The notes beneath the pieces are model-generated. The model searched no databases and had not been told where the DNA came from. It was given only the letters and a program-made list of their open reading frames with translations. The translations under genes and the position numbers were made by a program. This document shows, one piece after another, positions 7,930 through 24,541 of a stretch of DNA of 31,883 nucleotides. The DNA is from a virus, in IMG/VR virus record IMGVR_UViG_3300047408_000022, positions 1-31,883 of that record; one strand, 5' to 3'. The first letter of the stretch is position 1, and the number at the start of each line of letters is the position of its first letter.

Positions 7930-8987
7930 TGACAGAGACCAGGCAGCAGCGTCACCGGAAGCTGACCGGAGGTGCGGTCGCCGGAGCCGGTACCACCGCT
8001 GCCGGCGTCGGTCTGCTCGGCGGGGGCATCCCGGGGATCAAGTCCAACCACACGACCATCGAGAACATCGGTCGGTACAACTCGAAGACCGGCGTCAAGA
8101 ACTCGCGGGTCAAGCGAGCCGGAGCCTCGCTCAGCACGATGCGGGGTGGCATCTTCGGCTACCGCACCGACGCCCACCGGGCGTTCCGGGATCGGGCAGT
8201 CAACAACGAGAAGTACTTCGCCAACAAGCCCGCCAACCGGGGCGACAGGTACCTGCGCGGCCTGGACGCGGGGAAGGTCCCAGCCGAAGAGAAGATCATC
8301 CGGCACATGAAGTTCGGTCGGAAGGCGTCCGGGGTCGCTCTGGTCGGTGGAACTGCTGCGGTGGCGGGAGGCCTGCACCTGGCCAAGGGGCCCAAGAAGC
8401 AGGAGGTGCACAAGGCCGAGAAGAAGCACTACCGCTCGGACACCGCCAACGCTGCGCTGATCACGGGCGGTGCCGGTGCCGCCGGAGTCAGCTACGGCGG
8501 GGCGCGGGTGCTGGAGTCACAGGGCCGCAAGTGGTCCGATCAGGCTGAGCACAGCCACAAGGAAGCCCAGAAGATCATCCCGAAGCTGGGTCCACCCCAG
8601 ACCAACCGCTTCGTCGAGAAGATCCCGAACCTCAGGGTTCGCGATGTCGGACCAGCCGCAGGCAACCCGACTCCGAAGAAGATCTCGAACGACTACCGGA
8701 ACCCGCAGAAGAGGCAGGTCCTGGCGGGCAAGAGCAAGGCCCAGGCCGAGATGGCTGGGCGCTTCCACGGTGACGCCTCGCAGGCGCGCTACTTCGCCGG
8801 GGTGTACGGCAAGACCGCGAACCTCGCGCGCAAGGTGCCGAAGCCCGCTCTGGGTGTGGCCGGCGTGGGTGCGCTCGGTCTGGTCGGGAGCCGGGGCGCG
8901 CGGAAGGCCAAGGAGAAGTACGACGCGAGCAAGGGCAAGAAGAGCGAGCTGTCGAAGCGGATGAGCGCGTTCGGGGTGGTGCACTGA
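7929..8987 (+). CDS. Gly/Ala-rich basic protein with several hydrophobic segments; truncated SAFG tag at C-terminus
   Basis: This 352-residue protein matches no family I know. It has four Gly/Ala-rich hydrophobic stretches with GxxxG-like spacing: about residues 14-37, 133-154, 174-194 and 307-325. They are separated by strongly basic segments. Such glycine-zipper sequences often insert in or span membranes, so a DNA-ejection or pore-forming virion protein is possible, but this is inference. The last residues are MSAFGVVH, a shortened copy of the tag that begins five small genes in this window. The start ATG 7929 overlaps the protease stop (TGATG), and the stop overlaps the next start in the same way, so the three genes are probably translated together. 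Position between protease and scaffold suggests incorporation into the procapsid. Confidence 0.8.
   Translation: MTETRQQRHRKLTGGAVAGAGTTAAGVGLLGGGIPGIKSNHTTIENIGRYNSKTGVKNSRVKRAGASLSTMRGGIFGYRTDAHRAFRDRAVNNEKYFANKPANRGDRYLRGLDAGKVPAEEKIIRHMKFGRKASGVALVGGTAAVAGGLHLAKGPKKQEVHKAEKKHYRSDTANAALITGGAGAAGVSYGGARVLESQGRKWSDQAEHSHKEAQKIIPKLGPPQTNRFVEKIPNLRVRDVGPAAGNPTPKKISNDYRNPQKRQVLAGKSKAQAEMAGRFHGDASQARYFAGVYGKTANLARKVPKPALGVAGVGALGLVGSRGARKAKEKYDASKGKKSELSKRMSAFGVVH
8961..8987 (+). other. Truncated C-terminal copy of the SAFG tag
   Basis: The codons read M-S-A-F-G-V-V-H-stop at the end of the 7929 gene. They match the first eight or nine positions of the tag except that Val replaces Asp/Glu, and the stop falls where Gly-x-x-Ser-Lys would follow. 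It may be the remnant of a separate tagged gene that fused to, or was lost from, this locus. Confidence 0.6.
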
Positions 8988-10385: not shown

Positions 10386-11192
10386 ATGCCACGACCGGTA
10401 CGGAACTTGTCCGACATGGAGATCGACGAGATCTCGACCGTCGACAAGACAGCGAACCAGTACAGCCGGTTCGTCATCGCGAAGCGGGCTCCAGAGGAGG
10501 AAGAGATGCCCCAGCTCTACAACCAGGAGGGCCAGCCCCTCGATGAGGACCAGTTGGAGTTCGGCGACATCGTGTACGACGACCAGGGCGCTGCCTATGA
10601 GTTCGTCGAGGACGATGGCGAGGACGACGCTGAGTACGAGGACGAGGACCAGCTCGAGCTGGCCGAAGTCGGGAAGAGCGCGTTCTTCCAGCCACAGGCG
10701 GGCAGCTTCAGCCAGTCGGTGATGCAGGAGCTCTCCAAGGCGTTCACGGACAACGACCGGGACGCGGTGATCGCGAAGGCTCTTGGCCGGGTCGAGGAGC
10801 TCGAGGCGGCTCAGCACAACGCCGAGCTCATCGCCAAGTCCGAGCGCGACCTCCGGCTCACCCGGGAGTACATCTCCAAGGCCGAGGAGTACAACCTCCC
10901 GGTCTCGCCCGACGAGCTTGGCCCGGTGCTCTACCGGATGGCCGAGACGATGAGCTACGACGACTGCGCAGTGATCGCCAAGTGCCTGGAGACGGCTGGC
11001 GAGATCATCTTCGAGGAGACCGGCTACCAGGGTGGCGGCGACAACGCCGACATCTACAGCCAGGTCGAGGCTCACGCCTACGACGTGTTCGGCAAGGCCG
11101 AGAACTTCGATGCCGTCTCAGCAGTCAATACGGTGTTCGACCAGAATCCGGACGCCTACGACGAGTACCTGCGCTCCCAGCAGGCCCGGTAG
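10386..11192 (+). CDS. Probable scaffolding protein
   Basis: The protein has 268 residues and is strongly acidic, with E/D runs at about residues 35-40 and 75-95 and a helical, charged middle. It lies between the protease and the decoration/capsid genes, where scaffolds are normally encoded. The N-terminus contains EIDEISTVDKTANQYSRF followed by VIAKR, resembling the EIS-VDK-AN element I recall in phage head-maturation proteins. Residues 98-120 contain SAF and then ELSKAF. The same two blocks occur close together in the tagged protein at 24278, perhaps by chance. A perfect AGGAGG at 10495-10500 sits five bases before in-frame ATG 10506 (Met41), so a shorter form may also be made. Start ATG 10386 lies two bases after the previous stop, with AGAGG upstream. 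The function rests mainly on acidity and position. Confidence 0.7.
   Translation: MPRPVRNLSDMEIDEISTVDKTANQYSRFVIAKRAPEEEEMPQLYNQEGQPLDEDQLEFGDIVYDDQGAAYEFVEDDGEDDAEYEDEDQLELAEVGKSAFFQPQAGSFSQSVMQELSKAFTDNDRDAVIAKALGRVEELEAAQHNAELIAKSERDLRLTREYISKAEEYNLPVSPDELGPVLYRMAETMSYDDCAVIAKCLETAGEIIFEETGYQGGGDNADIYSQVEAHAYDVFGKAENFDAVSAVNTVFDQNPDAYDEYLRSQQAR
10495..10508 (+). promoter_or_regulatory. Strong internal ribosome site and start codon inside the scaffold gene
   Basis: AGGAGG, five spacer bases and ATG form a near-ideal initiation signal in frame at Met41. The resulting protein would have 228 residues and lack the EIS-VDK-AN element. The bases also encode a Glu run (EEEE), so the match may be a by-product of codon choice. 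Confidence 0.4.
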
Positions 11193-11207: not shown

Positions 11208-11609
11208 ATGGCCTACGAAGAGAGCATTCGGTCTATCTCGCTGAACGCGGATGCGTCCATCGGCATCTACACGGGGGTGCCGGGTCAGCCCGGGTCTCCC
11301 GATCCACATGGAGGGAAGCAGTACCACTTCGTGAAGGTGACCGGGGTACACCAGGTCGGTCTCGGAGATGGCGCTGGTCCCTGCATCGGGGTCCTGCAGA
11401 ACAAGCCGCAGGGTGCCGGCCAGGCTGCCACCGTCGCCATCCGTGGCGTGTCCAAGGTGGTCGCTGACGTACCGATCACAGCCGGGACCAAGGTCCAGGT
11501 GAGTGCAGATGGCCAGGCCACAGGTGCCGGTGCCACTGCAGTCGTCGGTATCGCACTGTCCACCGCCGCCAACGCTGGAGAACTCGTCAACGTTCTCCTG
11601 ACGATCTGA
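11208..11609 (+). CDS. Capsid decoration / head-stabilising-like protein (DUF2190-like)
   Basis: The 133-residue product is short, rich in Gly, Ala, Val and Thr, and predicted to be mostly beta strand. It includes GVLQNKPQGAGQAATVAIRG, then VADVPITAGTKVQVSADG and a hydrophobic end LVNVLLTI. This pattern is typical of DUF2190-type proteins encoded next to major capsid genes. They bind the outer capsid surface or help stabilise it. The ribosome site AGGAGGGG lies about 11 bases before ATG 11208, suggesting good expression, as expected for a protein needed in hundreds of copies. The capsid gene follows 13 bases after the stop. The family assignment is by pattern memory, so moderate to good confidence. 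Confidence 0.75.
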   Translation: MAYEESIRSISLNADASIGIYTGVPGQPGSPDPHGGKQYHFVKVTGVHQVGLGDGAGPCIGVLQNKPQGAGQAATVAIRGVSKVVADVPITAGTKVQVSADGQATGAGATAVVGIALSTAANAGELVNVLLTI

Positions 11610-11622
11610 GAGGAGAGAAGCC

Positions 11623-12621
11623 ATGCCGAACCCCACTCAGAGCGATCTCCACGTCAACGTGCCGCTGACCAACGTCAGCGTCGCCTACATGCAGGACAAG
11701 TCGCAGTTCATCGCGGACAAGGTGTTCCCACGAGTGCCGGTCCAGAAGCAGAGCGATCTGTACTGGAAGTACTCCAAGTCCGACTGGCGCAGGACGGACG
11801 CGCAGAAGCGTGCGCCCGGCACCGAGACGGCTGGTGTTGGCTGGAAGGTCGACACGGGGCAGTACTTCGCCGAGGTCTGGGGTGTCCACAAGGACATCGA
11901 CGACCAGATCCGTGCGAACGCGGACTCGAACTGGAAGCTCGACTCCGACGCCACCACCTTCGTCACCAACCAGCTGCTGCTGCGCCGTGACCTGGACTGG
12001 AACAACAACTTCTTCACCACCGGCAAGTGGGGCACCGACCTCGCTGGCGTGACCGGAACGGTGGGGGCTGGCCAGTTCCTGCAGTGGAGCGACCCGGCGT
12101 CAGATCCGATCGTGCAGTTCGCGGACCTGCAGACCAACTTCGTGGAGCAGAGCGGTCGCAAGGCCAACACTCTGGTGCTCGGAGCGCGGACGATCACCCA
12201 GCTCAAGAACCACCCGGACATCATCGACCGCATCAAGTACACCCAGCGTGGTGTCGTGACCACCGACCTGCTCGCGTCGCTGTTCGACGTGGAGAAGATC
12301 CTGGTCAGCTACGCGACGGTGACCAACGTGGCCGAGCTGAACGACGCGAAGGCGCAGGACGCCGCCGCGACGTACCAGTTCATGTCCAACTCCAAGTCGG
12401 CTCTGCTGGTCTACACCCCCAGCTCGCCGTCCCTGATGACCCCGGCTGGTGGCTACACCTTCACCTGGAACGGGTACCTGGCTGGCAACAGCTACGGGAT
12501 CCGGATGAAGAACTTCCGGATGGAGCCCATCGCTGCGGACCGCATCGAAGGCGAGATGACCTACGACATGCGGATCATCGCCAAGGACATGGGCATCTTC
12601 CTGGCCAACGCGGTGGCGTAG
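11623..12621 (+). CDS. Major capsid protein
   Basis: This 332-residue protein has the features of a tailed-phage major capsid protein. The N-terminus includes DKSQFIADKVFPRVPVQKQS and DLYWKYSKSDW, closely resembling the opening of one widespread actinophage capsid family. A KDIDDQIRAN segment, an LLLRRDLDW segment, a domain with TNFVEQSGRKANTLVLGART, and a late MTPAGGYTFTWNGY strand follow. It has no long N-terminal helical delta region, consistent with a separate scaffold gene at 10386. The ribosome site GAGGAGAG precedes ATG 11623. It follows the decoration gene and is followed by a strong hairpin, so capsid transcripts can be ended or stabilised there. I expect the HK97 fold; the sequence does not prove it. 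Confidence 0.9.
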   Translation: MPNPTQSDLHVNVPLTNVSVAYMQDKSQFIADKVFPRVPVQKQSDLYWKYSKSDWRRTDAQKRAPGTETAGVGWKVDTGQYFAEVWGVHKDIDDQIRANADSNWKLDSDATTFVTNQLLLRRDLDWNNNFFTTGKWGTDLAGVTGTVGAGQFLQWSDPASDPIVQFADLQTNFVEQSGRKANTLVLGARTITQLKNHPDIIDRIKYTQRGVVTTDLLASLFDVEKILVSYATVTNVAELNDAKAQDAAATYQFMSNSKSALLVYTPSSPSLMTPAGGYTFTWNGYLAGNSYGIRMKNFRMEPIAADRIEGEMTYDMRIIAKDMGIFLANAVA

Positions 12622-12683: not shown

Positions 12684-13079
12684 ATGTACTCAGCGTTTGG
12701 TGTCGACCACGGGTCCGAAGAGGTCGTGAAGGCCTTCAACTTCGGTGGTGGCGCACGGATCGCACAGGCTGGTCGGCACGCCGCCCAGTCGCCCGGGATG
12801 CTCAAGCAGCTCGGCAGCGGGGTGAAGAACCTCTTCGGTGGTGCCGGCAAGCACATGGCCGGCACACACGCAGGACCAGGGATGCTCCGGAACCCGTTCG
12901 GCGCTGGTGCCACTGCTGGTGGGGCGCACAAGTTCCAGGGTGCGCACATGGCAGCTCCGGGTGGATCTCGGATCGCCGGCGCACATGCCGGGCCACCCAA
13001 GATCGCGAACCCGCTCGGGGCGAACCCCGGGATGCGCAAGGGTGGGGCACACGCCGCCGGGCGTAGGAAGGCGTTCTGA
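12684..13079 (+). CDS. SAFG-tagged Gly/Ala/His-rich basic protein
   Basis: The 131-residue product starts with MYSAFGVDHGSEEVVKAF, the tag with a two-residue variation before the lysine. The remainder is rich in glycine, alanine, histidine, proline and basic residues. It contains a degenerate tandem repeat of HAGP-x(5)-NP-[FL]-GA (residues about 60-76 and 99-115), with related GAH elements between and after. I recognise no domain, and the sequence is probably disordered. I chose ATG 12684 because GGAGGG stands just before it. ATG 12651 has no such site and lies inside the hairpin. The stop overlaps the next start as TGATG. Its place straight after the capsid gene suggests a virion component expressed with it. 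Confidence 0.8.
   Translation: MYSAFGVDHGSEEVVKAFNFGGGARIAQAGRHAAQSPGMLKQLGSGVKNLFGGAGKHMAGTHAGPGMLRNPFGAGATAGGAHKFQGAHMAAPGGSRIAGAHAGPPKIANPLGANPGMRKGGAHAAGRRKAF
12861..13028 (+). repeat. Degenerate tandem repeat inside the 12684 gene
   Basis: Two 51-base units at 12861-12911 and 12978-13028 each encode G-[TA]-H-A-G-P, then a basic/hydrophobic patch, then N-P-[FL]-G-A. The DNA has diverged between them, so the duplication is not recent. Confidence 0.5.
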
Positions 13080-13615
13080 TGCCGAGCCAGCTCTTCACCA
13101 ACGACGCGATCTACTTCCTCGCGGCCAAGCCGTTCACCTACCGGGGCACCCCGTACGCCATGGGCGATGAGTTCCCACAGGAAGAGGCCAACAACATCGA
13201 GACCTTGATCCGGGCTCGGTTCATCATCCCGGTGCTCGACGACGGAGCCCTGAAGCCCCGGCACTGGCACGGTCACGTCCGGAACCGGGAGCAGGCCGAC
13301 GAGTACCTGAACCGGTCCCGTGTACAGCTGAAGATGCCGGAGCCGTATCACGAGCCCGACGAACAGATCGACCTAGATGTCCTCACCCACCCCGAGACGG
13401 CTCCAGACCCGACGCTGGAGGCTTCAGCCACGTCCGGGGAGGGTGAGGCTGACCCCGAGCCTCCGGAGAGCCTGGAGGAGACCTACGACCCGGCTGAGCA
13501 CAACGTGAACGCGGTCCTGGAGTACATGGATGAGCACCCGGAGCAGCGGGATGAGGTCCTCGCCATGGAACGCGCCGGTCGTGGGCGCAAGGGCATCCTG
13601 GGAGATGACGGGTGA
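13079..13615 (+). CDS. Neck-region protein of unknown function, acidic C-terminal half
   Basis: The 178-residue protein has a small N-terminal domain (about residues 1-60) with FLAAKPFTYRGTPYAMGDEF and an IETLIRARFIIPV helix. An acidic, proline-rich linker follows (about 95-140). The C-terminal helix reads NVNAVLEYMDEHPEQRDEVL and ends AGRGRKGIL. I recall a similar end in other actinophage proteins encoded just after the capsid gene, where it may be a docking peptide. The start ATG 13079 overlaps the previous stop, and its own stop overlaps ATG 13615. A role in head completion is suggested by position only. Confidence 0.75.
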   Translation: MPSQLFTNDAIYFLAAKPFTYRGTPYAMGDEFPQEEANNIETLIRARFIIPVLDDGALKPRHWHGHVRNREQADEYLNRSRVQLKMPEPYHEPDEQIDLDVLTHPETAPDPTLEASATSGEGEADPEPPESLEETYDPAEHNVNAVLEYMDEHPEQRDEVLAMERAGRGRKGILGDDG

Positions 13616-13950
13616 TGGAGAGCGCATTCGGGATCGAGCACGGCTACGAGATCGAGAAGGGCGTCTTCGGCGGCATCGAGTCTCTGGGCACCAAGGCCGT
13701 CACTAGGGGCAACGCGATGCGCCGTACCGGTGCAGCCAGCATCAGGTCGAGCAAGTCCCTGGCGCTGTCACCCGAGGAATCCACCCACCGGTTCAAGACG
13801 GGCACCCAGCAGCTGAAGCGCGGTACCAACCTGAAGAGGATCGGTAGCCCGCTGGCGAACCACCCGACCGCAGTCGGCGTCGGAGCCATTGGTGCTGGGG
13901 CAGCTGGAGTCGGCGGCGGAGCGGCCCTGTACGCGAACCGTAGGCAGTAG
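13615..13950 (+). CDS. SAFG-tagged basic protein with C-terminal glycine-rich hydrophobic segment
   Basis: The 111-residue product starts MESAFGIEHGYEIEK; Ile replaces Val and Glu replaces Ser in the last tag positions. A basic middle rich in Arg, Lys, Ser and Thr follows. The C-terminus is a hydrophobic segment of Gly, Ala and Val (about residues 83-107) ended by NRRQ, the layout of a tail-anchored or membrane-inserting peptide. No known family is recognised. ATG 13615 overlaps the previous TGA; GTG 13612 would add only one Met. Two tagged genes stand side by side here, and this one is built like the next: tag, basic middle, glycine-rich end. They may be diverged duplicates. Confidence 0.78.
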   Translation: MESAFGIEHGYEIEKGVFGGIESLGTKAVTRGNAMRRTGAASIRSSKSLALSPEESTHRFKTGTQQLKRGTNLKRIGSPLANHPTAVGVGAIGAGAAGVGGGAALYANRRQ

Positions 13951-13953
13951 CCC

Positions 13954-14364
13954 ATGTACAGCGCGTTCGGGGTCGACCACGGGGAGATCTCCAAGGCTGG
14001 CGGTGCCCATGCTGCGCAGAAGGTAGGACTGCTGAGGCGTGTGCTCAAGAGGCCCCCCAAGCTCGGCAAGCTCGGTGGCGGGCGTGGCGGTAGGGCCACG
14101 GCTGCCCAGGTGCGGACCAAGGGCACGGGTCCGGTGATCCCGGGATCCGAGCGTGGTGTCCGGGGCGCTCTGAACCGAGCCGGAGAGGCCGACATCTCGA
14201 TCAAGGGCATCGGCAGCAAGGTGGGCGGCAGCGCGCTGAAGACCGGAACCTTCATGCAGCGGCACCCAGGACTCACCGGCACGGCTGCGCTGGGAGGTGG
14301 CGGCGCGGGTGGCTATCTGCTCATGAACAGGGAGTCCAAGCCGCGCAAGAAGTCGGTGGAGTGA
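13954..14364 (+). CDS. SAFG-tagged basic protein with C-terminal glycine-rich hydrophobic segment
   Basis: The 136-residue product begins MYSAFGVDHGEISK, which I take as the best match to the tag consensus. A strongly basic region follows (RRVLKRPPKLGKLGGGRGGR), then a mixed region, and near the end a hydrophobic stretch GTAALGGGGAGGYLLM (about residues 108-123) before a basic tail. The plan is the same as in the preceding gene. The function is unknown. The stop overlaps ATG 14364 of the connector gene as TGATG, so it is embedded in the neck operon and probably made at the same time as structural proteins. Confidence 0.78.
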   Translation: MYSAFGVDHGEISKAGGAHAAQKVGLLRRVLKRPPKLGKLGGGRGGRATAAQVRTKGTGPVIPGSERGVRGALNRAGEADISIKGIGSKVGGSALKTGTFMQRHPGLTGTAALGGGGAGGYLLMNRESKPRKKSVE

Positions 14365-14879
14365 TGGCCGGCACCTACACCTACGACGGGGCTGGGACCA
14401 CCGAGAAGGACACCATCCGGTTCCTGATCCAGGACACCGACCCACATGCTGCCGGTGAGTGGCTGCTCACCGATGAAGAGGTCCAGTACGCCTACGACAC
14501 CTGGTTCCCGCTGTACAACTCCAACGAGTACGTAGCCGCAGTTCTCGCTGATACCATCGCGGCGCGTTACGCACGCGAGGCGTCCTACAGTGCTGATGGC
14601 GTGAGCGTGTCGCTCGGTCAGGTAGGGGATCAGTACCGGATGCTCGCTGCCTCTCTCCGGGAGCAGCACAAGAGTCTCCTCGTTGGGGGAATGCCCGATG
14701 TAGGCGGGATGACTCCCAACGAGGGGCTCCTCCCGGACACCAAGCCCTTCTCCTTCGGCAAGGGCATGCACGACAGCGTGGAGGCCGGGAACCAGGAGTG
14801 GGGCGGGGTCTACCCACCCGACATCCCGATCGAGGGCACCCAGAACGTGCCCGATGACGAGAAGATCGTCGAGCCGTGA
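14364..14879 (+). CDS. Head-tail connector (adaptor) protein
   Basis: The 171-residue product has the hallmarks of the first connector that docks under the portal. These are DTIRFLIQDTDP near residue 17, then WLLTDEEVQYAYDTWF, then an Ala-rich helix VAAVLADTIAARYA and the SVSLGQVGDQYRMLA segment. The first two blocks are typical of gp6/gp15-type adaptors. A 60-residue C-terminal extension rich in Gly, Pro and acidic residues is likely flexible. I chose ATG 14364, overlapping the previous stop; GTG 14361 adds one residue. The next genes (stopper, gp10-like, tail terminator) follow the standard siphovirus neck order, which supports the call. Confidence 0.8.
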   Translation: MAGTYTYDGAGTTEKDTIRFLIQDTDPHAAGEWLLTDEEVQYAYDTWFPLYNSNEYVAAVLADTIAARYAREASYSADGVSVSLGQVGDQYRMLAASLREQHKSLLVGGMPDVGGMTPNEGLLPDTKPFSFGKGMHDSVEAGNQEWGGVYPPDIPIEGTQNVPDDEKIVEP

Positions 14880-15289
14880 CCAGCCCGATCACCGCGCAGT
14901 CGCGGCAGTACGTACGAGCTCGAGCCACGGCGGTGATGGAGTACACCTGCGAGATCCATCGCAAGGAACTGCCTGAGGGCTACGACGAGGACACCCTGGT
15001 CTACACGCCGGCGGGCCTGGCCACACTCATCTACGAGGGCCCCTGCCGGATCTGGGAGGTGGCCAACGCCAGCTCCTTCATCGTGGCCGACGCCGACATC
15101 TACCAGATGACGACCAACCTCTCGATCCCCTGGGACACCCCAGCAGTGATCCTGTACCACGACGAGGTGACGATCCTGACCGCGCCCCAGGACTCCCAGA
15201 TGGTGGGGAAGCGGTACGAGATCCAGACCATCGCCAAGGCGGGTGAGCTACGGGCCACCCGGCGCTTCGAGGTCACCGGGATCATGTGA
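14876..15289 (+). CDS. Head-closure / stopper-like protein (DUF6093-like)
   Basis: The 137-residue product starts at GTG 14876, overlapping the stop of the connector gene. It is largely beta-rich: YEGPCRIWEV, then VILYHDEVTIL, then VGKRYEIQTI, and ends RATRRFEVTGIM. This order is typical of the small barrel proteins that close the head below the connector, annotated in actinophages as DUF6093 or head-to-tail stopper. Its place directly after the adaptor fits this role. Its TGA overlaps the ATG of the tagged gene at 15289. The assignment is based on pattern memory and order. Confidence 0.72.
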   Translation: MTSPITAQSRQYVRARATAVMEYTCEIHRKELPEGYDEDTLVYTPAGLATLIYEGPCRIWEVANASSFIVADADIYQMTTNLSIPWDTPAVILYHDEVTILTAPQDSQMVGKRYEIQTIAKAGELRATRRFEVTGIM

Positions 15290-15798
15290 TGGAGTCCGCG
15301 TTCGGCGTCGACCACGGCTGGGTCTCCAAGGCCAGGGAGTATAAGCGCGACGCCGAGGGCAAGTTCGCTCCCATGACTGACCAGGAATACGAGGACGAGA
15401 CCGACTCGATCGGTTCCGACATCGGTCAGATGCATCGCGCTGAGACCGATGCTGAAGCTCACGCGCACTGGCACAAGCAGGTCAAGATCGGTGCTGACTA
15501 CCTGCGCTCGCGCGGCGAACATGAAACGGCTGACGACTTCGACTCCTTCGCTGATGAGTCGCTGAGCAGACACAAGAAGAAGATGGCTCGGATGAAGCGC
15601 GAGGCAGCTCGGCGGAAGAAGGTCTCCAAGGGCATCCCCAAGGGACTGCCGGCGGCTGCTGGGAAGAACCGGTACGCCCTGCTCCGGCTCCGCGCGCACA
15701 ACAAGGGGAAGCTCGGCTTCGAGGGCGGGAAGAAACCCCGGCAGGCGGCTCGGAAGATCCTGCAGTCCTCTGAGGAGAACCGGGGAAGGCTGCCCTGA
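15289..15798 (+). CDS. SAFG-tagged protein with an RD..GKF motif
   Basis: The 169-residue product starts MESAFGVDHGWVSK and continues directly into AREYKRDAEGKFAP, where R20-D21 and G24-K25-F26 form the RD..GRF-type motif also seen in the 826 protein. This is the only gene here where tag and motif adjoin. Residues 32-80 are acidic and helical. The rest is lysine- and arginine-rich, with no glycine-rich hydrophobic segment. It lies between the stopper and gp10-like genes, a spot that usually holds no gene in siphovirus neck operons. ATG 15289 overlaps the previous stop; GTG 15286 is a possible alternative. The function is unknown; a virion-associated role is inferred. Confidence 0.8.
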   Translation: MESAFGVDHGWVSKAREYKRDAEGKFAPMTDQEYEDETDSIGSDIGQMHRAETDAEAHAHWHKQVKIGADYLRSRGEHETADDFDSFADESLSRHKKKMARMKREAARRKKVSKGIPKGLPAAAGKNRYALLRLRAHNKGKLGFEGGKKPRQAARKILQSSEENRGRLP

Positions 15799-16256
15799 TG
15801 GGCGCGGAGGGTTCCGCTGACATCTCCCAGCTGGCTGAGGCGCTACGGGAGACCTCCAAGATGTCCGGGTTCACCACCCAGCAGGTGCTGATCCAGAGCG
15901 CCAACCACATCCTGGCCGAGATGGAAGCACGGGTACCGGTGAAGACCGGGAAGCTGCGTGGCTCGCTACGGATCAAGGTCGGCACCGACAACGTGATCAT
16001 CGGCCCGAACGAGAACATCGCGCCGTACGCCGGGTACGTGGAGTTCGGCACCAGGCCGCACGACATCAAGCCCAAGAGCGCGCACGGGGTGCTGGTCTTC
16101 TACATCAACGGCAAGAAGATCGTGACCCGGAAGGTGCACCACCCCGGTACCTCGCCGCAGCCGTACGTGCTGCCCGCGTTCCAGGCATGGGTGGACTCCC
16201 TTGGGACGATGGCTGCAGAAGCCAACGTCCGAGTCTGGAGAGCCAATGCCCCCTAG
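15798..16256 (+). CDS. HK97 gp10-like neck / tail completion protein
   Basis: The 152-residue product matches the HK97 gp10-like family. Signs are an N-terminal helix, EARVPVKTGKLRGSLRI (about residues 45-61), a hairpin VIIGPNENIAPYAGYVEFGT, and RPHD...KSAHGVLVFYINGK followed by PQPYVLPAF near the end. Family members join the tail to the completed head, probably as a ring at the head-tail interface. It starts at ATG 15798, overlapping the previous stop, and overlaps the next gene by 11 bases. The family call is clear from the KTGKLR and YVEFGT blocks. Confidence 0.88.
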   Translation: MGAEGSADISQLAEALRETSKMSGFTTQQVLIQSANHILAEMEARVPVKTGKLRGSLRIKVGTDNVIIGPNENIAPYAGYVEFGTRPHDIKPKSAHGVLVFYINGKKIVTRKVHHPGTSPQPYVLPAFQAWVDSLGTMAAEANVRVWRANAP

Positions 16257-16713
16257 CTCCATCTCCCGTGGACCGATCACCAACCGTCTCCTGGACGAGC
16301 TGGCGACGGAGGGCTTCCCGGTGGGCGACAACCAGTCGCCCATGGTTCCGTTCGGCTGGCAGGGAGAGCCGAACGCACCCGGCACCACGTTCACCCCGTG
16401 GCTCTCACTGTCACCTGCCTCGGGCATGGTGCAGGGCCCATCAGGACCCCTGAGCAGTACCCAGGAGGACTGGCGGCTGGGCTACTCGGTGACGTACGCC
16501 GGCATCTCCAGGAAGCAGACAGAGGCACTGGCGGATCGGATGCGGATGAACCTGACCGGCATCGCCAGGGAGAACGTCGACACACCTACAGGTGCCTGGC
16601 GAGTCCAGCAGATCAAGTGCACCGCGATCGGGAACACCACCCGGATCGGCTCCGCCTATCCGGACTACTTCACACAGGCAGACTCGTTCGAGGTCTGGGT
16701 CACGAAGGGATAG
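16246..16713 (+). CDS. Tail terminator-like protein
   Basis: The 155-residue product follows the gp10-like gene and precedes the tail tube gene, the usual place of the tail terminator, which caps the finished tube and joins it to the head. Predicted features agree: an N-terminal helix (ITNRLLDELATEGFPVG), central beta strands (FTPWLSLSPAS), a helix (KQTEALADRMRMNLTG) and a final strand pair ending DSFEVWVTKG. I chose ATG 16246 because GGAG lies seven bases before it, although it overlaps the upstream gene by 11 bases. The frame is open further upstream from ATG 16201. The assignment rests on order and size. Confidence 0.65.
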   Translation: MPPSSISRGPITNRLLDELATEGFPVGDNQSPMVPFGWQGEPNAPGTTFTPWLSLSPASGMVQGPSGPLSSTQEDWRLGYSVTYAGISRKQTEALADRMRMNLTGIARENVDTPTGAWRVQQIKCTAIGNTTRIGSAYPDYFTQADSFEVWVTKG

Positions 16714-16716
16714 CAC

Positions 16717-16890
16717 ATGTCACGACTCATCAGCATCACCAAGGATGGCGAAACGGGCCAGTGCATGCCGTCCGCTCTGCCCGCATGGGAGCGAAACGGC
16801 TGGACGCGCGCAGATGATGGAAGTAGCGCAGAGCCCAAGGCAGAGGAGCCCAAGGCTCCCGCGAAGAAGACCACCACGAAGGAAGGCTGA
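16717..16890 (+). CDS. Small protein between tail terminator and tail tube (57 aa)
   Basis: The gene reads MSRLISITKDGETGQCMPSA, then LPAWERNGWTRADDG, and ends in a charged tail with PAKKTTTKEG. It starts three bases after the terminator gene stop, and the tail tube start lies three bases after its own stop. AAGGGA stands six bases before the ATG. Codon use resembles its neighbours. Short genes with a PSA-x-x-x-W-x-x-x-GW core and a Lys/Ala/Pro tail are common at this spot in actinophages. The role is unknown. Confidence 0.72.
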   Translation: MSRLISITKDGETGQCMPSALPAWERNGWTRADDGSSAEPKAEEPKAPAKKTTTKEG

Positions 16891-16893
16891 CCG

Positions 16894-17376
16894 ATGGCCC
16901 GGATCATCCCGAATGAGAACACCTGGATCGGGTTCATCGCCGGTGGCACGGTGGTAGACCAGAAGCCCACCGTCTCGCAGATCGCGGGCGCGATCGACCT
17001 GACCGGGTTCTGCATCAGCCTCAACGCGAGCTCGCGCGGCAACACGGTGCCCACCCCTGCGTTCGACTCGCTCTTCGAGACCAGCGCGCCTGGTACCTCG
17101 GCGGCAACGTTCGACGCGGACTTCTACCGTGACGACGAGGACGGCAACGACACCGCGTGGGAGACCCTGCCCCGCAACACCCCGGGCACCTTCGTGATCG
17201 CCCGGTTCGGCGGCAAGGGCGCAGACAACCTACCGATCGCTGGCGACTCGGTTGAGGTGTGGACCGTGACGGTCACGTCCCGGACGATGGCGAACATGAG
17301 CTCCAACACGGTGCTGACGTTCACTGCGTCCTGCTCGGTCAACATCGAGCCGGATGAGGACTACACCGTCGCCTAA
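16894..17376 (+). CDS. Major tail (tube) protein
   Basis: The 160-residue product is beta-rich. It includes NTWIGFIAGGTV, IDLTGFCISLNASSRG, a DADFYRDDEDGNDTAWETL loop and the VEVWTVTVTSRTM strand near the C-terminus, ending in NIEPDEDYTVA. The repeated strands, the loop and the location just before the frameshifted chaperone genes fit a siphovirus tail tube protein, which stacks in rings to form the tube. GGAAGG lies upstream of ATG 16894. I am confident in the call from order and pattern, though the family name is not certain. Confidence 0.85.
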   Translation: MARIIPNENTWIGFIAGGTVVDQKPTVSQIAGAIDLTGFCISLNASSRGNTVPTPAFDSLFETSAPGTSAATFDADFYRDDEDGNDTAWETLPRNTPGTFVIARFGGKGADNLPIAGDSVEVWTVTVTSRTMANMSSNTVLTFTASCSVNIEPDEDYTVA

Positions 17377-17423
17377 CAGGGATAGCATCGGATCGACTAC
17401 ATCCCCACACCAGGAAGTCCCCG

Positions 17424-17858
17424 ATGCCCACCTCTGCAGCGAAGACCGCCGAAGCACGTCAGAAGCAGTCCGAGTCGGACAAGCGCGCCACCTTGGACCA
17501 GCTCATCAACAAGCCTCGGTCCACGACCGAGTTCTCCCTCTACCTCTCGGACGGCAACGGCGGCACCAACGAGGTGACGCTGAAGTACCAGGCGATCGGG
17601 ATGCGGGCCTACGACCGCCTGGTGGCCAAGCATCCGCCCAAGCCCGACCAGCGTGCGGAGGGGTCATCGTTCGACATGGACACCTTCGCGCCGGCGTTGA
17701 TCGCTGCCTGCTCTGTCGACCCGGAGATCAGCCCCACCGAGGCGAAGAAGATCTGGGACTCCGAGGAGTGGTCGCGTGGCGATGTGATGGTGCTGTTCCG
17801 GCAGGCCGTGGAGCTGAACAACCGGGGGCTGGACATCCCTTTCAGCGAAAGCGACTGA
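17424..17858 (+). CDS. Tail assembly chaperone, short form (G-like)
   Basis: The 144-residue product lies between the tail tube and tape measure genes, as tail assembly chaperones do. It starts at ATG 17424 behind AGGAAG. It has a Lys/Gln-rich N-terminus, a beta segment TTEFSLYLSDGNGG, and helices near MRAYDRLVAKHPPKPDQ and PTEAKKIWDSEEWSRGDV. In family members the short form is made in excess and the longer frameshifted form binds the tape measure. The CCCTTTC slippery site lies five codons before its stop. Confidence 0.85.
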   Translation: MPTSAAKTAEARQKQSESDKRATLDQLINKPRSTTEFSLYLSDGNGGTNEVTLKYQAIGMRAYDRLVAKHPPKPDQRAEGSSFDMDTFAPALIAACSVDPEISPTEAKKIWDSEEWSRGDVMVLFRQAVELNNRGLDIPFSESD

Positions 17859-18211
17859 GGAAGGATCGCAACTTCTACCTGGAGATGTCGTACTGCTTCG
17901 AGAAGGGGATCCCGCACTCGAAGTGGCTGAAGTGGGATGCCGAGGACCGGGCCAAGACCCTGGCCTTCGCGATCGAGTCCTCGATCCGCTGCACCATGTG
18001 TGGCACCGCGCCCTGGGAGTGGGCGGAGGATAAGTTCGCCTTCACCCCGGTCGATGAGTTCTGCCAGGGCTGCTACCAGAAGGCGGTCTTCGGAGACACG
18101 CAGGGCTCGTCCCTACCCGGGACCAATGTCAAACTGATCCCGACCACGCCCCAGCTGACTGCCCAGATGGCGATGAAGGCCGCGAGACGCCGGTCACTGA
18201 AGACGGAGTAG
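17424..18211 (+). CDS. Tail assembly chaperone, long form by -1 frameshift (G-T-like)
   Basis: A -1 shift at CCCTTTC (17837-17843) joins the first 140 residues of the short form to a second frame read from 17843 to 18211, giving 262 residues. The extension begins QRKRLRKDRNFYLEMSYCFE and contains a C-x2-C-x20-C-x2-C set (Cys190, 193, 214, 217), like a zinc ribbon. It ends in a basic helical tail. I see no convincing ribosome site for separate initiation of the second frame, though ATG 17894 is in frame. The tape measure gene starts four bases after the stop. The shift mechanism follows lambda G/GT by analogy. Confidence 0.8.
17837..17843 (+). promoter_or_regulatory. Programmed -1 frameshift site CCCTTTC
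   Basis: In the reading frame of the short chaperone the bases read C CCT TTC, fitting the X-XXY-YYZ rule. After a one-base slip both codons still pair as Pro and Phe. The zero-frame stop is at 17856-17858 and the -1 frame remains open to 18211. Confidence 0.8.
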
Positions 18212-18215
18212 GGAT

Positions 18216-21200
18216 GTGAGCAGCCAGCCGGTCGAGGCCAACGTCGTACTGACAGCGGACAACACCCAGTACGACCAGGCGATGCAGGCCTCGTCTCAGT
18301 CGACCAGCCAACTGGGCAAGACCGTCGATGGCCTCGGGGAGAAGATCAACAAGCTCTCCAAGTCCGCTGGGCGCAAGATGCTCGGCATCACCGCTGCCGA
18401 TGTTGCGGTGGTCACCGGAGCTACCGCTGCCTGGGCCAGCTACGAGAAGCAGATGTCTCGGCTCCAGGCCCAGGCAGCAGTCACCACCAGGACCCGCGAT
18501 GCCGAGGTCAAGGTGATGAAGACCTACACCGCCTCGGTGAAGGAGCTCCGGAGCCAGTTCGGCATGACCACGACCGAGGCCGCTGAGCTGACCCAGCAGA
18601 TCTCCAAGCTGGCCGACAGCACCAAGAGCATCAAGGGCCTGGCCGATGTCTTCGCGGACATGAGCCACGCCACCGGAGAGTCCTCCAGTGGTCTGGCCAA
18701 CAGCCTGCTGAACCTGCAGAAGATCATGGGCACTCCGCAGTCCCAGACCCGGAACTACGCGGACCAGCTGACCTACCTGGCGGCGAAGAGCAACACCAGT
18801 GCCACCGCCCTGGCTGACTTCTCCTCACAGCTGGCCCCGATGGGTCGCGCGATGGGGATGACCCAGACCCAGGTCACCGGCTTCGCGAACATGTTCTCCA
18901 AGGCTGGCCAGGACGGGATCGCAGCCGGCTCGGCCTTCTCCAAGGTCAGCACCGACATCCTGCAGGCTGTCCAGACCGGCTCCCCGGACCTGCACAAGTA
19001 CGCCAACCTGCTGGGCGTCACGGTCGGCCAGTTCAAGGAGATGGGTGGCCAGGAGCAGGTCGCTCGCTTCTTCGACCAGATCGCCAGGCTGGGGCCACGG
19101 GCAGCGATGGAGCTGAACCGGTTCGGGCTGGACGGGATCCGGATGAGCAAGGCCATCACCGGAACCGTGCAGGCCTCCGGTGGGGCCATGAACTCGATCC
19201 GTGAGGCCCAGATCGGCTACGGCTCAGACGCCACCAACAAGGGTGCGGATGCTGCTGAGAACATGAGCATCACCCTGGCCAAGATGCGCCAGGACATGCA
19301 GCAGACAGCCGAGGCAGTCGGCGCGATGTTCGGGCCTCCCACGGAGAAGGCCCTGAAGGTCATCGAGAAGCTGGCCAGTGGCTTCCAGACCCTGATGGAG
19401 GGGCCACTGGGCAAGTTCATCTCCCTGCTCACCGGGTCCGTGGGTGTGATCACCGCAGTCGCCGGAGCGATGCTGCTGCTGGCCGCAGCGACGATCAAGG
19501 TGGCCGCTGCCGCTGCGGTCTGGAGGAGCTCTCCGGTATACGGCCTCCGAGAGGGGCTCCGGGGCGGGGCCGCGATGACCCCGGAGATGATCGGTGGTCG
19601 AGCCACCGGACAGTACATCGCCGCCGGCGGCAGAGGTGCCTACCTGGGTGCTCAGGGTGCTCAGATCGCGGAGCGGGGCTCCTGGGGATCGCGGCTCTTC
19701 TACAACCGTGGCCAGGCGGCAGGAGCCTCGATGAGGACTGCCGGACGTTGGGTCGAAGGTCTGCCCTGGATGCAGGCCGGACCTGGTGGAGAGGCCAGCC
19801 AGGCATCGCGCTTCGGTGGGAGGGCGATCCGGTTCGGCTCTGGTCTGTGGAACCAGCAGTTCGAGGCGCTGCGCTACCCCGGAGTGACCGACGAGGGGCG
19901 GACCAAGTTCCTGGGTCGCTACTTCGGCGGCAGGGGTCCCGAGGTCCAGCAGGCCATGACTGAGACCAACGCGGCGCGCACTTCGCTGGCCAAGGCCCAG
20001 GTCGAGCACTTCGGCTGGGCTGGGGCTCAGAAGATGGGCGACAACCGCCCAGAGACTGAAGCAAGGGTCAAGTCCCTTGAGAAGGACATCGTGGCGCTGG
20101 AGGCCCACGTCAAGACGCTGGAGGCAGACGAAGCGGCTCTCGTTCAGAACGCTCGGCAGGAGAAGGTCGATGCAGAGCTACAGACGACGGAGACCAAGAA
20201 GGTCGTCGGCACCATGGAGGTGCTGCGGGAGGAGTCCGCCGGCCTCGCGAAGAACTTTGCCGCCGCCTCTATCGCCGCCGGCAAGTTCGCTGTCCAAGGG
20301 GCTGTCAAGGCTGGTGCCGGTCTGGTCGGGGCCCTGGGTGGTGGCGTGAGCGCCGCGATCATGGGCGCGATGATGCTGCCGTTGCTCATCCCGATGATCA
20401 AGGGCCTGGGCAACAAGATGTTCGGGGACGAGTCCAAGAACGTCCAGAACTACGCCGGGTTCGGTGCTGCCTACCAGCAGACCGCCGGGGTCACTCCGAA
20501 CACGGGTAGCGCGGCTATCGTCGCGGGAGCTCGGCCAGCTCCGCAGAACAGAGCTCAGGCGCTCGCGATGAACCCGCTGACCGTTTCTGCGGCCACGGCT
20601 CCGGAGTACAAGCTGAACGAGCCCGGTCTGAAGGACCTGGACTCGGATCAGGCGCTGACTCTGCTCAGCACCAGATGGGATTCGGTCAAGCACAACCCGG
20701 CTGCCGTAGGGCAGATGAGGGACGACCTGATCAACCGCTACGGTCCTGCCCAGGCCGGGATCATGCTCACCCAGCTGCAGATGGGGACCGGTCAGCCGAC
20801 CAGCATGGGTCAGTACTACCAGAAGATCCGCGCCGGCGAGGACACTGGCAAGAGCATCGGTCTGATCGGAGACATCGCCAAGTCACGGATCACCTCGGCC
20901 ATGCTCAAGGGCGGACCGACCGGTGCGTACCGAGAGCAGGCCCGTGGGGTGGCTGGGATGGCCACGCAGATCGCACTGGCTCCCACTGGTCCGGACAAGG
21001 ACCTCGAGAACGAGCTGAACAAGACCTACGGCGTAGACATCTCAGGTCTGGCGGACATCCACGCTCGGAGCTACTACGAGACCGGCAACGTCACCGCTGC
21101 CGGCGTGAAGGCGATGGAGGCGAAGGGGCTCACCACCTCTGAGTCCTTCTCGGGCATGGGCCAGGCGGCGAAGCTCCGGTATCTGATCGAGCACGCCTCG

Positions 21201-24200
21201 GATGATGAGGCAGCAAACCTGCGGGCGAAGTTCAACGTCCCGGCGGGGCTCACCGGGGACGACCTGCAGAGGCGTCTCCACAGGACGCTCACCTCCGAGG
21301 GTGACGAGCTGTACAAGACCTCAGGCACCCTGCAGAGGCGAGTCCGCGAGCAGGGACCTGCCGGGGCGATGTTCGAGGGCAGCAAGGCGGTCCAGGCCGC
21401 GCTGGGATCCGAGGCTCAGAACGTCGGTCAGAACGTCAAGGCCATCAACGAGATGCTGGAGTCCATGCGGTCCGCAGGGATGTCCGCACCCGAGATCACC
21501 AAGGCGATGGGCAAGGTCCAGTCCACCTTCGGCGATCCCTCGGACCCGAACTACATCCTGGCCGGGATGATCTCCGGACAGGCCCAGCAGGACCTGGCCC
21601 TGAAGATGCCGACCATGACCAGGGCCGAGGGGTTCAGCGCTCAGGTCCAGCAGTTCAAGGCCATCGAGTCGATCAAGCCGGTCACCGACGAGCAGTTCCA
21701 GAACCAGCAGGACGCCAAGAACAACATGGCGCAGCAGCTGACTGACCAGGAGAACTACTTCAAGCAGATGCTGATGATGCAGCATCAGTACGAGATCCAG
21801 CGGAAGCGGGCCCAGGACGACTACCAGCAGCAGCGGACCTGGCAGGAGCAGGCCTACCATCTGCAGCGGCAGCGGGCCGAGGCCTCCTTCAACCGGCAGC
21901 GCAACTACGCCATCCAGGACTACAACCGCAGCGTGAAGCGGTCGAACTTCGAGTTCAACCTGCAGCGGAGCCGGGCCGAGGCCGACTTCAACCACCAGGT
22001 CATGCAGCAGGCCAAGCAGATGGCCACCAGCGTGTACGACGTGTACAGCCGGGTGCAGGAGCAGCGCACCTCCTCGGCCAACTGGCTGATCGCCAACGCC
22101 TCTGACCAGCTGAAGCGGATGCAGGAGCAGGAGCAGAACCTGCAGAAGCTGCGCGCGGAGGGGCTGAGTAACCAGGCCATCCAGACCCTGAAGCTGACCG
22201 ACCCGGCACAGGCTCAGCAGGCGGCTCGGCTGGTCGCGGAGATGACCCCGGCGATGGCGGCCAAGTTCAACCAGGTGGCCGGCACCGCTCGGGTGAAGGC
22301 AGCCAAGGCACTGGTCACCGACGAGTCCAACCCGGAGTGGGAGGAGATGCGGAGGAACGAGCGCCTCCAGATGAAGCGCTCCAAGGATGACCACGACCGG
22401 CAGGCGAAGATCAGCCACGACGACTTCTTCCGTGGTCTGGACCGGACGCAGAAAGAGTTCACCATCCAGATGGCGCAGATGGACCATGACCAGGGCGTGG
22501 CCATGGACCACATGCAGACCACCTACGACACCTCGATGAAGCGAGCTGCACAGGACGTGGCCGATGCCGGTCTCGAGATCAGCGGGAACCTGACCCAGAT
22601 CCTGAACAAGTCGATCAACACCCTGACCGGGCACGCCCGACAGCAGGCGATCGAGGTCAAGAAGTCGCTGACCAACCTGCGCACCGACACCAACCCGATC
22701 GCGGTCGCGCACATGCAGGAGCTGGCCAGCATCTACGGGTTCGAGTACAAGATCCCGAAGGGGCTGGGGAAGTACCTGGCCGACCAGACCGGCACCCAGA
22801 GCCCCTCAGATATCCCTGGCCGGCACTCGGGTACACAGCAGGATGTGCACGGGAGAGCTCAGGGTGGCGTGCTCCCGGGCTGGTCTCCGGGTCGTGACGA
22901 CCGGATGGTGCCGCTGTCCGGTGGTGAGGCGATCATGCGCCCGGAGTGGGCGCGAGCGGTGGGCAAGTCGACCATCGACCAGATGAACCACGACGCTCGG
23001 CACGGCGGGTTCTGGCTCGGCGGCACGATGCCACTGCCGAACGCCTCGGTCTCCCAGCACTCCCACTCCCAGTACCCGTTCGCGACCTGGGCCGGTGACC
23101 TGAACTACCCCGGACGTGCCGACTACGGGAAGCCGATCGTGGCCTGGAGGAGCGGCGTCGCCAAGCCCTTCGACCTCGGCTCGGACCGCTCGTACGGTCG
23201 TGGCCAGGTCATCGACTCCGGGAACCAGAGCGAGCTGTACGCGCACATGAGCAAGGTGCTCACCGGGCTGGCCGGGAAGAAGGTGCAGGCCGGACAGGTG
23301 ATCGGTTACGTCGGTGACTACGGCAACACCGGAAGCCCTCCCACCAGCCACCTGCACTTCGAGATCCGGGGCGGCAAGATCAACCTGTCCGACTCCGATA
23401 CCGGCACCGGTGGAACCGGGCGTGCTGTCGGGATCTCGTTCAGCGATCTGGTCAAGCCGATGTACCCACGGGCAGAGAAGGCTGCCTGGAACATGACCGG
23501 TGTGCACCCGTTCGTGCCCGGGATGATGTCGAAGATCCTCAACCGGATGGCGCACCGGGCCTGGAAGAAGCTGGACCGGCAGTACGGGGTCGCCGGCGCG
23601 TCCGGGTCCACCCTCGGTGAGTCAGCGGATGCTCAGAACGCACCGGCGAACGTGCACGGAGCGGTGGCCACCGGCAAGCGGATGGCAGCGGCCATGGGCT
23701 GGACCGGTAACGAGTGGGACGCGCTGTACCAGCTCTGGCAGCACGAGTCCGGCTGGAACTACCTGGCCGACAACCCCAGCTCCCACGCACACGGCATCCC
23801 CCAGGCGCTGCCCGGCTCGAAGATGGCCTCCGCCGGCGCGGACTGGATGACCAACCCAGCCACCCAGATCAAGTGGGGGCTGAACTACATCAAGGGTCGT
23901 TCCGACTACGGCTCCCCGAGCAGGGCCTGGGACCTGTGGCAGTCCCGGTCCCCGCACTGGTACGGAGACGGAGGGGTGTTCAACGGCCCACAGACGATCG
24001 GGGTCGGGGAGAAGGGTCCGGAGGCGGTGATCCCGCTCAACGACCGTGGTGCCGACTTCATGTCCCAGCTGATGGGCAACGACGCGCGCAAGATCGGGCT
24101 GCACAGCTCACCGATGCGCGGCGGGCTGCACGTCTACAACACCCGGATCGACCGCTCCACCAACTTCAGCGGTCCGATCACGGTCCAGACCAACGACCCG

Positions 24201-24281
24201 GCGGAGATGATCCACAAGCTCCAGGCCCGGCAGCGCGTGATGGCCCTGTCCCGGCCCTCCCTGACAGGATCAGCAGCATGA
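18216..24281 (+). CDS. Tape measure protein with M23 peptidase and SLT-type lytic domains
   Basis: The 2021-residue protein starts at GTG 18216; the ATG two bases earlier meets a stop at once. Residues 1-400 are helical with FADMSHATGESSSGLANSLL, typical of TP901-like tape measures. Hydrophobic segments lie at about 401-437 and 683-735. A Gln/Arg/Tyr-rich coiled region (1190-1270) and a second charged helical region (1385-1450) follow. Near residue 1550 is GGVLPGWSPGRDD. An M23 domain follows, with likely His1615 or His1617, Asp1628, His1677 (LYAHMS), His1712 and His1714 (SHLHFEIR). Next is an SLT-like domain with WQHESGWN and likely catalytic Glu1844, HGIPQALPGSKMAS and WGLNYI. The end has GEKGPEAVIPLND. 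The protein sets tail length and can locally open the host cell wall during DNA entry. At roughly 1.5 angstrom per residue the tail could approach 300 nm, but enzyme domains make this an upper estimate. Confidence 0.92.
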   Translation: MSSQPVEANVVLTADNTQYDQAMQASSQSTSQLGKTVDGLGEKINKLSKSAGRKMLGITAADVAVVTGATAAWASYEKQMSRLQAQAAVTTRTRDAEVKVMKTYTASVKELRSQFGMTTTEAAELTQQISKLADSTKSIKGLADVFADMSHATGESSSGLANSLLNLQKIMGTPQSQTRNYADQLTYLAAKSNTSATALADFSSQLAPMGRAMGMTQTQVTGFANMFSKAGQDGIAAGSAFSKVSTDILQAVQTGSPDLHKYANLLGVTVGQFKEMGGQEQVARFFDQIARLGPRAAMELNRFGLDGIRMSKAITGTVQASGGAMNSIREAQIGYGSDATNKGADAAENMSITLAKMRQDMQQTAEAVGAMFGPPTEKALKVIEKLASGFQTLMEGPLGKFISLLTGSVGVITAVAGAMLLLAAATIKVAAAAAVWRSSPVYGLREGLRGGAAMTPEMIGGRATGQYIAAGGRGAYLGAQGAQIAERGSWGSRLFYNRGQAAGASMRTAGRWVEGLPWMQAGPGGEASQASRFGGRAIRFGSGLWNQQFEALRYPGVTDEGRTKFLGRYFGGRGPEVQQAMTETNAARTSLAKAQVEHFGWAGAQKMGDNRPETEARVKSLEKDIVALEAHVKTLEADEAALVQNARQEKVDAELQTTETKKVVGTMEVLREESAGLAKNFAAASIAAGKFAVQGAVKAGAGLVGALGGGVSAAIMGAMMLPLLIPMIKGLGNKMFGDESKNVQNYAGFGAAYQQTAGVTPNTGSAAIVAGARPAPQNRAQALAMNPLTVSAATAPEYKLNEPGLKDLDSDQALTLLSTRWDSVKHNPAAVGQMRDDLINRYGPAQAGIMLTQLQMGTGQPTSMGQYYQKIRAGEDTGKSIGLIGDIAKSRITSAMLKGGPTGAYREQARGVAGMATQIALAPTGPDKDLENELNKTYGVDISGLADIHARSYYETGNVTAAGVKAMEAKGLTTSESFSGMGQAAKLRYLIEHASDDEAANLRAKFNVPAGLTGDDLQRRLHRTLTSEGDELYKTSGTLQRRVREQGPAGAMFEGSKAVQAALGSEAQNVGQNVKAINEMLESMRSAGMSAPEITKAMGKVQSTFGDPSDPNYILAGMISGQAQQDLALKMPTMTRAEGFSAQVQQFKAIESIKPVTDEQFQNQQDAKNNMAQQLTDQENYFKQMLMMQHQYEIQRKRAQDDYQQQRTWQEQAYHLQRQRAEASFNRQRNYAIQDYNRSVKRSNFEFNLQRSRAEADFNHQVMQQAKQMATSVYDVYSRVQEQRTSSANWLIANASDQLKRMQEQEQNLQKLRAEGLSNQAIQTLKLTDPAQAQQAARLVAEMTPAMAAKFNQVAGTARVKAAKALVTDESNPEWEEMRRNERLQMKRSKDDHDRQAKISHDDFFRGLDRTQKEFTIQMAQMDHDQGVAMDHMQTTYDTSMKRAAQDVADAGLEISGNLTQILNKSINTLTGHARQQAIEVKKSLTNLRTDTNPIAVAHMQELASIYGFEYKIPKGLGKYLADQTGTQSPSDIPGRHSGTQQDVHGRAQGGVLPGWSPGRDDRMVPLSGGEAIMRPEWARAVGKSTIDQMNHDARHGGFWLGGTMPLPNASVSQHSHSQYPFATWAGDLNYPGRADYGKPIVAWRSGVAKPFDLGSDRSYGRGQVIDSGNQSELYAHMSKVLTGLAGKKVQAGQVIGYVGDYGNTGSPPTSHLHFEIRGGKINLSDSDTGTGGTGRAVGISFSDLVKPMYPRAEKAAWNMTGVHPFVPGMMSKILNRMAHRAWKKLDRQYGVAGASGSTLGESADAQNAPANVHGAVATGKRMAAAMGWTGNEWDALYQLWQHESGWNYLADNPSSHAHGIPQALPGSKMASAGADWMTNPATQIKWGLNYIKGRSDYGSPSRAWDLWQSRSPHWYGDGGVFNGPQTIGVGEKGPEAVIPLNDRGADFMSQLMGNDARKIGLHSSPMRGGLHVYNTRIDRSTNFSGPITVQTNDPAEMIHKLQARQRVMALSRPSLTGSAA

Positions 24282-24541
24282 GGTCGGCGTTCGGCGTGGA
24301 GCACTACGAGCTCTCCAAGGCCTTCCGGAAGATCGCTCCGAAGCTGGAGGCTGCCTCACGCGCGCTGGAGAGCAGGCCTCGCGCGGGGATCGCGGGTGCG
24401 GGCAAGGAGAACTACGCCCAGTGGCGTCTCCAGGCTGGTCGGCCTGGTCCGCGTTCGCGTGAGTACCGGATCAAGGACAAGGAAGGCGCACAGGCCTGGG
24501 TCACGGCAGCCGGGAACCGAGAGGGTAGGAAGCTGCCATGA
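24278..24541 (+). CDS. SAFG-tagged small basic protein after the tape measure gene
   Basis: The 87-residue product starts MRSAFGVEHYELSKAF, with Tyr where most copies have Gly, then a helix (KIAPKLEAASRALE) and a basic region. I recognise no domain and see no hydrophobic glycine-rich segment. It starts with ATGA overlapping the tape measure stop and ends with ATGA overlapping the next gene, so it is fully inside the tail operon. It is the only tagged gene among the tail genes, which argues against a tag tied only to capsid neighbours. The role is unknown. Confidence 0.8.
   Translation: MRSAFGVEHYELSKAFRKIAPKLEAASRALESRPRAGIAGAGKENYAQWRLQAGRPGPRSREYRIKDKEGAQAWVTAAGNREGRKLP

Follow-up and report, generated by a model that had tools for sequence, protein, structure and literature searches.

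What would lead five small, otherwise dissimilar phage genes to begin with the same short peptide? The question is posed by a 31,883-base stretch of DNA, the whole of IMG/VR record IMGVR_UViG_3300047408_000022 (positions 1 to 31,883; hereafter the window), which comes from an uncultured tailed phage and carries its head and tail modules along with the end of the portal gene. The peptide is a tag with the core SAFG[VI][DE]H; it is a real and specific feature, distinct from any ordinary domain family. We consider it probable that the tag is a portable capsid-targeting, or cargo-loading, peptide, which would be cleaved in the head and whose cargo would be ejected with the DNA.

The initial annotation of the window had placed the tag at the beginning of five genes, and the five starts and peptides are exactly as first described. 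All lie on the plus strand: MYSAFGVDHGSEEVVK (12684..12731) opens gene 12684-13079, whose product has 131 amino acids (aa) and an isoelectric point (pI) of 11.7; MESAFGIEHGYEIEK (13615..13659) opens gene 13615-13950 (111 aa, pI 10.7, with a Gly-rich hydrophobic C-terminus); MYSAFGVDHGEISK (13954..13995) opens gene 13954-14364 (136 aa, pI 11.4); MESAFGVDHGWVSK (15289..15330) opens gene 15289-15798 (169 aa, pI 9.7); and MRSAFGVEHYELSK (24278..24319) opens gene 24278-24541 (87 aa, pI 10.7), directly 3' of the tape measure gene. The DNA pattern for M-x-SAFG[VI][DE]H matches five times in the window against 0.00 expected from 100 dinucleotide shuffles, and the reversed DNA pattern has no match there. 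The reported switching of the Ser codon is borne out (TCA, AGC, AGC, TCC and TCG, in gene order), while the reported follow-on G-x-[IVL]-S-K occurs in its exact form in only two of the five; a looser form, in which a residue is followed by [SEV]K at 2-7 residues past the His, fits all five. Although the five genes are real, the description of an N-terminal tag on five small genes was too narrow, for C-terminal, internal and clade-wide copies exist as well. Two copies in the window itself had been overlooked: an internal tag, KVSKRDTE-SAFGVEH-GEVSK (10157..10216, plus strand, core at 10181), with Lys motifs on either side, in gene 8987/9002-10384 (460 aa, pI 10.3), and a degenerate C-terminal tag, SAFGVVH-stop preceded by ELSKRM (8964..8984, plus strand), closing gene 7929-8987 (352 aa, pI 10.8).

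Behind the tag the proteins differ. With the tag masked, the five window proteins have no detectable mutual homology, and for genes 12684, 13615, 15289 and 24278 BLAST finds no homolog among 13 related contigs at the threshold used; the family of gene 13954 has homologs in five other contigs, all of them tagged. None of the Pfam or PHROG names for the window's tagged proteins is convincing. Across 15 contigs, 83 tagged proteins compared with the tag masked fall into 52 homology groups, which rules out one ordinary domain family; that the five might be full-length homologs of a single family, a possibility raised with the initial annotation, was checked and is not the case. The core genes (portal, MuF, XkdF, scaffold-like, cement, capsid, connectors, tail tube and tape measure) keep their order across the 15 contigs, recur as homologs in 8-13 of 13 other contigs and are almost all untagged. 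Tagged genes are inserted between them at recurrent places and turn over fast.

Nor is the tag bound to one end of a protein. By position, the core motif was counted 209 times at N-termini and 22 times at C-termini, in addition to internal copies, and one family shows two placements, C-terminal (and worn) in window gene 7929-8987 and N-terminal in L072:3494-4501, with bodies 32% identical. Judged from these placements, the tag is portable and not tied to either protein end. What is conserved is the peptide and not the DNA: 232 tags are written in 201 distinct 21-nucleotide sequences, yet encode only 24 peptides. Variation at the third codon positions of the tag comes close to saturation, yet the peptide stays fixed, and the tag's Gly codon varies by 1.97 of 2 bits at its third base and by 0 at the first two. 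Most residues of the tag are set by the scan patterns, and conservation within the 232-tag set is therefore partly a matter of construction; the synonymous variety and a retrieval based on the capsid protein (below) are free of that bias. So many DNA versions for so few peptides, and so many non-homologous genes with the tag, are good support for selection acting on the peptide. The initial annotation is thus upheld in this part of its interpretation and not in its N-terminal, five-gene scope.

Two pattern scans of IMG/VR yielded at least 118 stretches each. In 20 long contigs, 98/98 matches lie on a single strand within each contig, and the reversed pattern has no match in them. Retrieval by capsid protein, which is independent of the tag, gave 80 loci, 50 of them with at least 75% capsid identity; in 49 of these 50 the motif is present on the coding strand in 1-7 copies, and on the opposite strand it occurs in 0/80 loci. 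More distant members carry variant tags, namely S[VPY]WG[VI]DH (e.g. SVWGVDH), NAFG[VI][DEQ]H (e.g. NAFGVEH) and PFGVEH. In the capsid-protein tree the tag-bearing phages occupy one broad clade, some tagless subclades included, and cultured relatives among Arthrobacter, Microbacterium and Rhizobium phages fall outside it and have no tag. The tag is absent from the nearest cultured capsid relatives examined (Kovu, Kharcho, ValentiniPuff and RHph_Y60), and a tblastn search with a 20-aa tag, an insensitive one, matched no cultured phage. By these retrievals, the tag system is common to a large clade of uncultured soil phages. A host or cellular origin was considered and rejected: among the matches listed from 257 billion bases of bacterial and archaeal contigs there are only isolated ones, one per stretch, and in none of those listed is the N-terminal pattern followed by the [IV]SK part. 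No prior description of the tag was found in the open literature by motif strings or phrases.

A natural substitution offers a view of what the tag may bind. In a subclade of six contigs (G021-G026), whose capsid protein is 67-71% identical to that of the window, W replaces F in 16/16 tags, spread over 15 genes. Relatives of several of these W genes bear F tags elsewhere, as is the case for G024_5558 (relatives in L028/L072), G026_4604 (L059), G023_23853 (L373/L358) and G021_42198 (L264). Because the same residue changed in parallel in unrelated genes, the pattern points to one shared binding partner. The split is not absolute, since single W tags turn up in a few F-clade phages, and copying of tags within a genome could add to their likeness within a clade. 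At L405:6282-7268 (G023 23853 and 24372), a single open reading frame (ORF) holds two W-type tags, one N-terminal and one internal.

Location and chemistry direct attention to the head. Tagged genes make up 68/225 genes of the head module, 4/144 of the tail module and 13/989 elsewhere (Fisher p 2e-41). The tagged proteins are small (median 117 aa) and very basic (median pI about 11.4): a pI above 10 is found in 99% of tagged versus 5% of untagged proteins over all modules, and in 98% versus 9% within the head module. Even among the 10 untagged basic proteins of the head module, four bear worn tags at the protein end or beginning (SAFGVVH-stop, SAFGIVHD-stop, MKDAFGVER-VSK and MRDAFGVSK), and in G004_037 a gene-start error hides an intact VRSAFGVEHFAK, with an identical sequence at locus L080. 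Cysteine accounts for 2/16,970 residues of tagged proteins, compared with 0.37% in core structural proteins. Some tagged proteins have Gly-zipper matches, and single members match GNAT acetyltransferase and DUF6321. The predicted structure of the 13954 family has a low mean pLDDT of 54, an unstructured tag half and two C-terminal helices; disorder is likely, and the model is otherwise uninformative.

Several further features of tagged proteins were seen in passing. YHAST/YHTT stretches reminiscent of ADP-ribosyltransferases occur in L264:3657-4127 (YYHAST) and L441:9302-9742. For the former, an ADP-ribosyltransferase assignment found no PDB match, and the near-identical L330:4763-5233 has no Pfam match, leaving an impression only; the latter has no Pfam match either. 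An 827-aa tagged protein (L289:6350-8830) contains DGNHRATARV and has, by visual impression only, a ParB-like look. Another short motif, RDxxG[RK]F in type (examples are YKRDAEGKFA, HPRGYGGRFG and YKRDAQGRFA), appears in tagged proteins and in a MuF-like protein (window 15289-15798 and 4737-6647; L072:4526-6067).

Beside the tag lies what may be a processing site. The motif [hydrophobic][SAT]K occurs within 14 residues after 82% of the 209 N-terminal tags versus 6% of random body windows, and all N-terminal tags have a Lys within those 14 residues. C-terminal tags have a Lys within the 12 residues before the core in 22/22 cases, and many internal tags have a Lys site on both flanks. A candidate enzyme is encoded at 6670..7929 (plus strand) by an XkdF-type prohead protease gene (PF14550, Peptidase_S78_2, E 1e-16), the product of which has a conserved [IV][SAT]K close to its own N-terminus. 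As the Lys sites separate tag from body, XkdF processing, an idea already voiced in the initial annotation, is plausible, and the arrangement suggests that XkdF removes the tag by cutting at the Lys site; the prohead protease of HK97 cuts at K103/S104 (PMC10275583).

A binding partner may be encoded nearby as well. Between the protease and capsid genes, at 10386..11192 (plus strand), lies a gene for an acidic (pI 4.1, net charge -43), helix-rich protein that, from its position and character, we presume to be the scaffold and a candidate partner of the tagged proteins. The motif [IVLF][SA]K occurs in it and its orthologs about six times each (89 observed versus 6.1 expected over 14 orthologs, which are not independent), and cultured tagless relatives show a milder excess too. 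The protein also bears a conserved element, VGK-SAFF...ELSKAF, that resembles a degenerate tag; the SAFG clade has this element, in the form SAFG in L112 and L075, and the W clade does not. As a co-varying partner of the tag, SAFF was considered and set aside, for it fails to follow the W switch.

These features can be joined in a mechanism. The tag would dock small, very basic and largely disordered accessory proteins inside the forming procapsid, most likely on the acidic scaffold or on the inner face of the shell. During head maturation, the XkdF protease would probably cut the Lys site between tag and body, and the freed basic cargo would remain with the packaged DNA in the virion. On ejection into the host, it may aid genome entry or counter host functions. 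Sorting to the procapsid is favoured over other roles because of the head location, the extreme basicity, the concerted F-to-W change and the parallels with T4 internal proteins.

Of the rival explanations, the one that survives best, though we think it unlikely, is that the tag is only a recognition or cleavage signal for the XkdF prohead protease, and that charge alone brings the basic proteins into the head. HK97-like (K/S) Lys sites do lie beside nearly every tag (PMC10275583), and a scaffold of pI 4.1 could attract basic cargo without further help. However, the SAFG..H core stands several residues off the Lys and exceeds the site by far in conservation, and a seven-residue core is unneeded for mere cutting; known prohead-protease sites are short, as in T4 and the giant phages, whose enzymes cut after Glu past a short motif (PMC9026906).

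We give a still smaller chance to recruitment outside the head, whether to a protein or the nucleoid of the host, to a degradation pathway or to a compartment for phage replication. Thirteen tagged genes lie beyond the structural module, and the charge of the bodies is like that of DNA-binding proteins. Yet tagged genes are 30% of the head module against 1% of non-structural genes, and the tag closely tracks the phylogeny of the capsid protein. Slightly less credible again is the notion that tagged proteins are outer head or tail decoration or connector subunits docked via the tag. It draws on the tagged genes that flank connector-region genes and on the one slot after the tape measure gene, but tail genes are scarcely tagged, the set of genes varies too much for a structural joint, and a pI of about 11, the lack of Cys and the Gly-zipper matches better fit internal proteins that are DNA-associated or membrane-active. 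Spread of a shared 5' end by recombination or duplication, its function unselected, would explain why tags are alike within a clade but is very improbable given the saturated third codon positions over a fixed peptide, the C-terminal and internal tags, and the parallel F/W changes in unrelated genes.

Several points weigh against capsid targeting. The tagged phages are uncultured and known from genes alone, and the cultured relatives examined are without the tag; a few of the tagged genes map elsewhere than the head module. The label of scaffold rests on position, acidity and predicted helix only, the protein's [IV][SA]K repeats fall mostly in predicted helices and may reflect coiled-coil composition and not cleavage sites, and its SAFF element, which some tagged phages lack, ignores the F-to-W switch. 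A broader proposal, to which we give even odds, is that the tag constitutes a lineage-wide, position-independent address code, by which any protein that gained a tag, at either end or in a linker, became capsid cargo. The cargo would then be a large, hypervariable and swappable arsenal of proteins for ejection (Gly-zipper proteins, one GNAT-like protein and many unknowns), with tag and receptor co-evolving to match each other in the F, W and N clades.

Three more genes, all on the plus strand, are untagged in the window. The C-terminal part of the portal (33..824) sits at the contig edge; its homolog in G010 has an internal tag and is the sole tagged portal. A cement or decoration protein (Phage_cement_2, 11208..11609) and the major capsid protein (11623..12621), the marker by which the clade was traced, precede the first N-terminally tagged gene. 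A 1304-aa protein (826-4740) starting with MPYKSDKQRRYMHAQHPGIASRW is conserved in nearly all contigs and has no convincing Pfam or PHROG match; it is a candidate internal or receptor protein. Two short genes at 17424-18211, upstream of the tape measure gene and the second of them open upstream in-frame (ORF 17354-18211), show the pattern expected of a frameshifted tail assembly chaperone pair. The tape measure protein itself (18216-24281, 2021 aa) has a Peptidase_M23 domain near residues 1635-1720.

If capsid targeting is the role of the tag, then sequence alone could suffice to identify the capsid cargo throughout a phage clade, exposing hundreds of unstudied ejected proteins. The natural F-to-W variant pair provides a direct genetic handle on the receptor, and laboratory phage systems used for cargo studies would gain a candidate loading peptide.

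How does the tag compare with known systems? The cargo-loading peptides of encapsulins are likewise short linear tags on unrelated cargo destined for a shell of the HK97 fold (PMC8346489, PMC7355545); encapsulin shells, however, are bacterial compartments, whereas here genes for a scaffold-like protein and a prohead protease adjoin the tagged genes and an apparent cleavage site lies beside the tag. Ejection propeptides of giant phages (SPN3US gp47 and others) share the proposed targeting to the prohead and removal by the prohead protease, but that of gp47 is 111 residues long, and no common short consensus like the SAFG tag is seen in the accessible part of that account (PMC7411985). The closest parallel is with the basic internal proteins of T4, whose targeting propeptides of 10-19 residues have affinity for the core; the prohead protease cuts them, and the proteins are ejected (PMC9026906). 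As with the T4 capsid targeting sequence (CTS) of IPI-III and Alt, a short peptide, of 10-19 aa in T4 and about 14-16 in these phages, sits on proteins whose mature regions diverge (PMC9026906), and the cargo is small and basic in both; the core affinity and protease cutting of T4 are proposed here for a system known from genes alone. In contrast to the CTS, the tag has one strongly conserved core that may be N-terminal, C-terminal or internal, each phage has several tagged genes, the bodies of which vary widely, and the protease is of the XkdF/S78_2 type with proposed Lys sites, whereas T4 gp21 cuts after Glu; by gene content, the phages appear siphovirus-like and not T4-like. The best reading is that the tag works like a T4 capsid targeting sequence, a likeness in manner of working and not a claim of membership in that class. 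If so, the packing of proteins by short tags would be a general strategy, to which these soil phages would have found a second solution beside that of T4.

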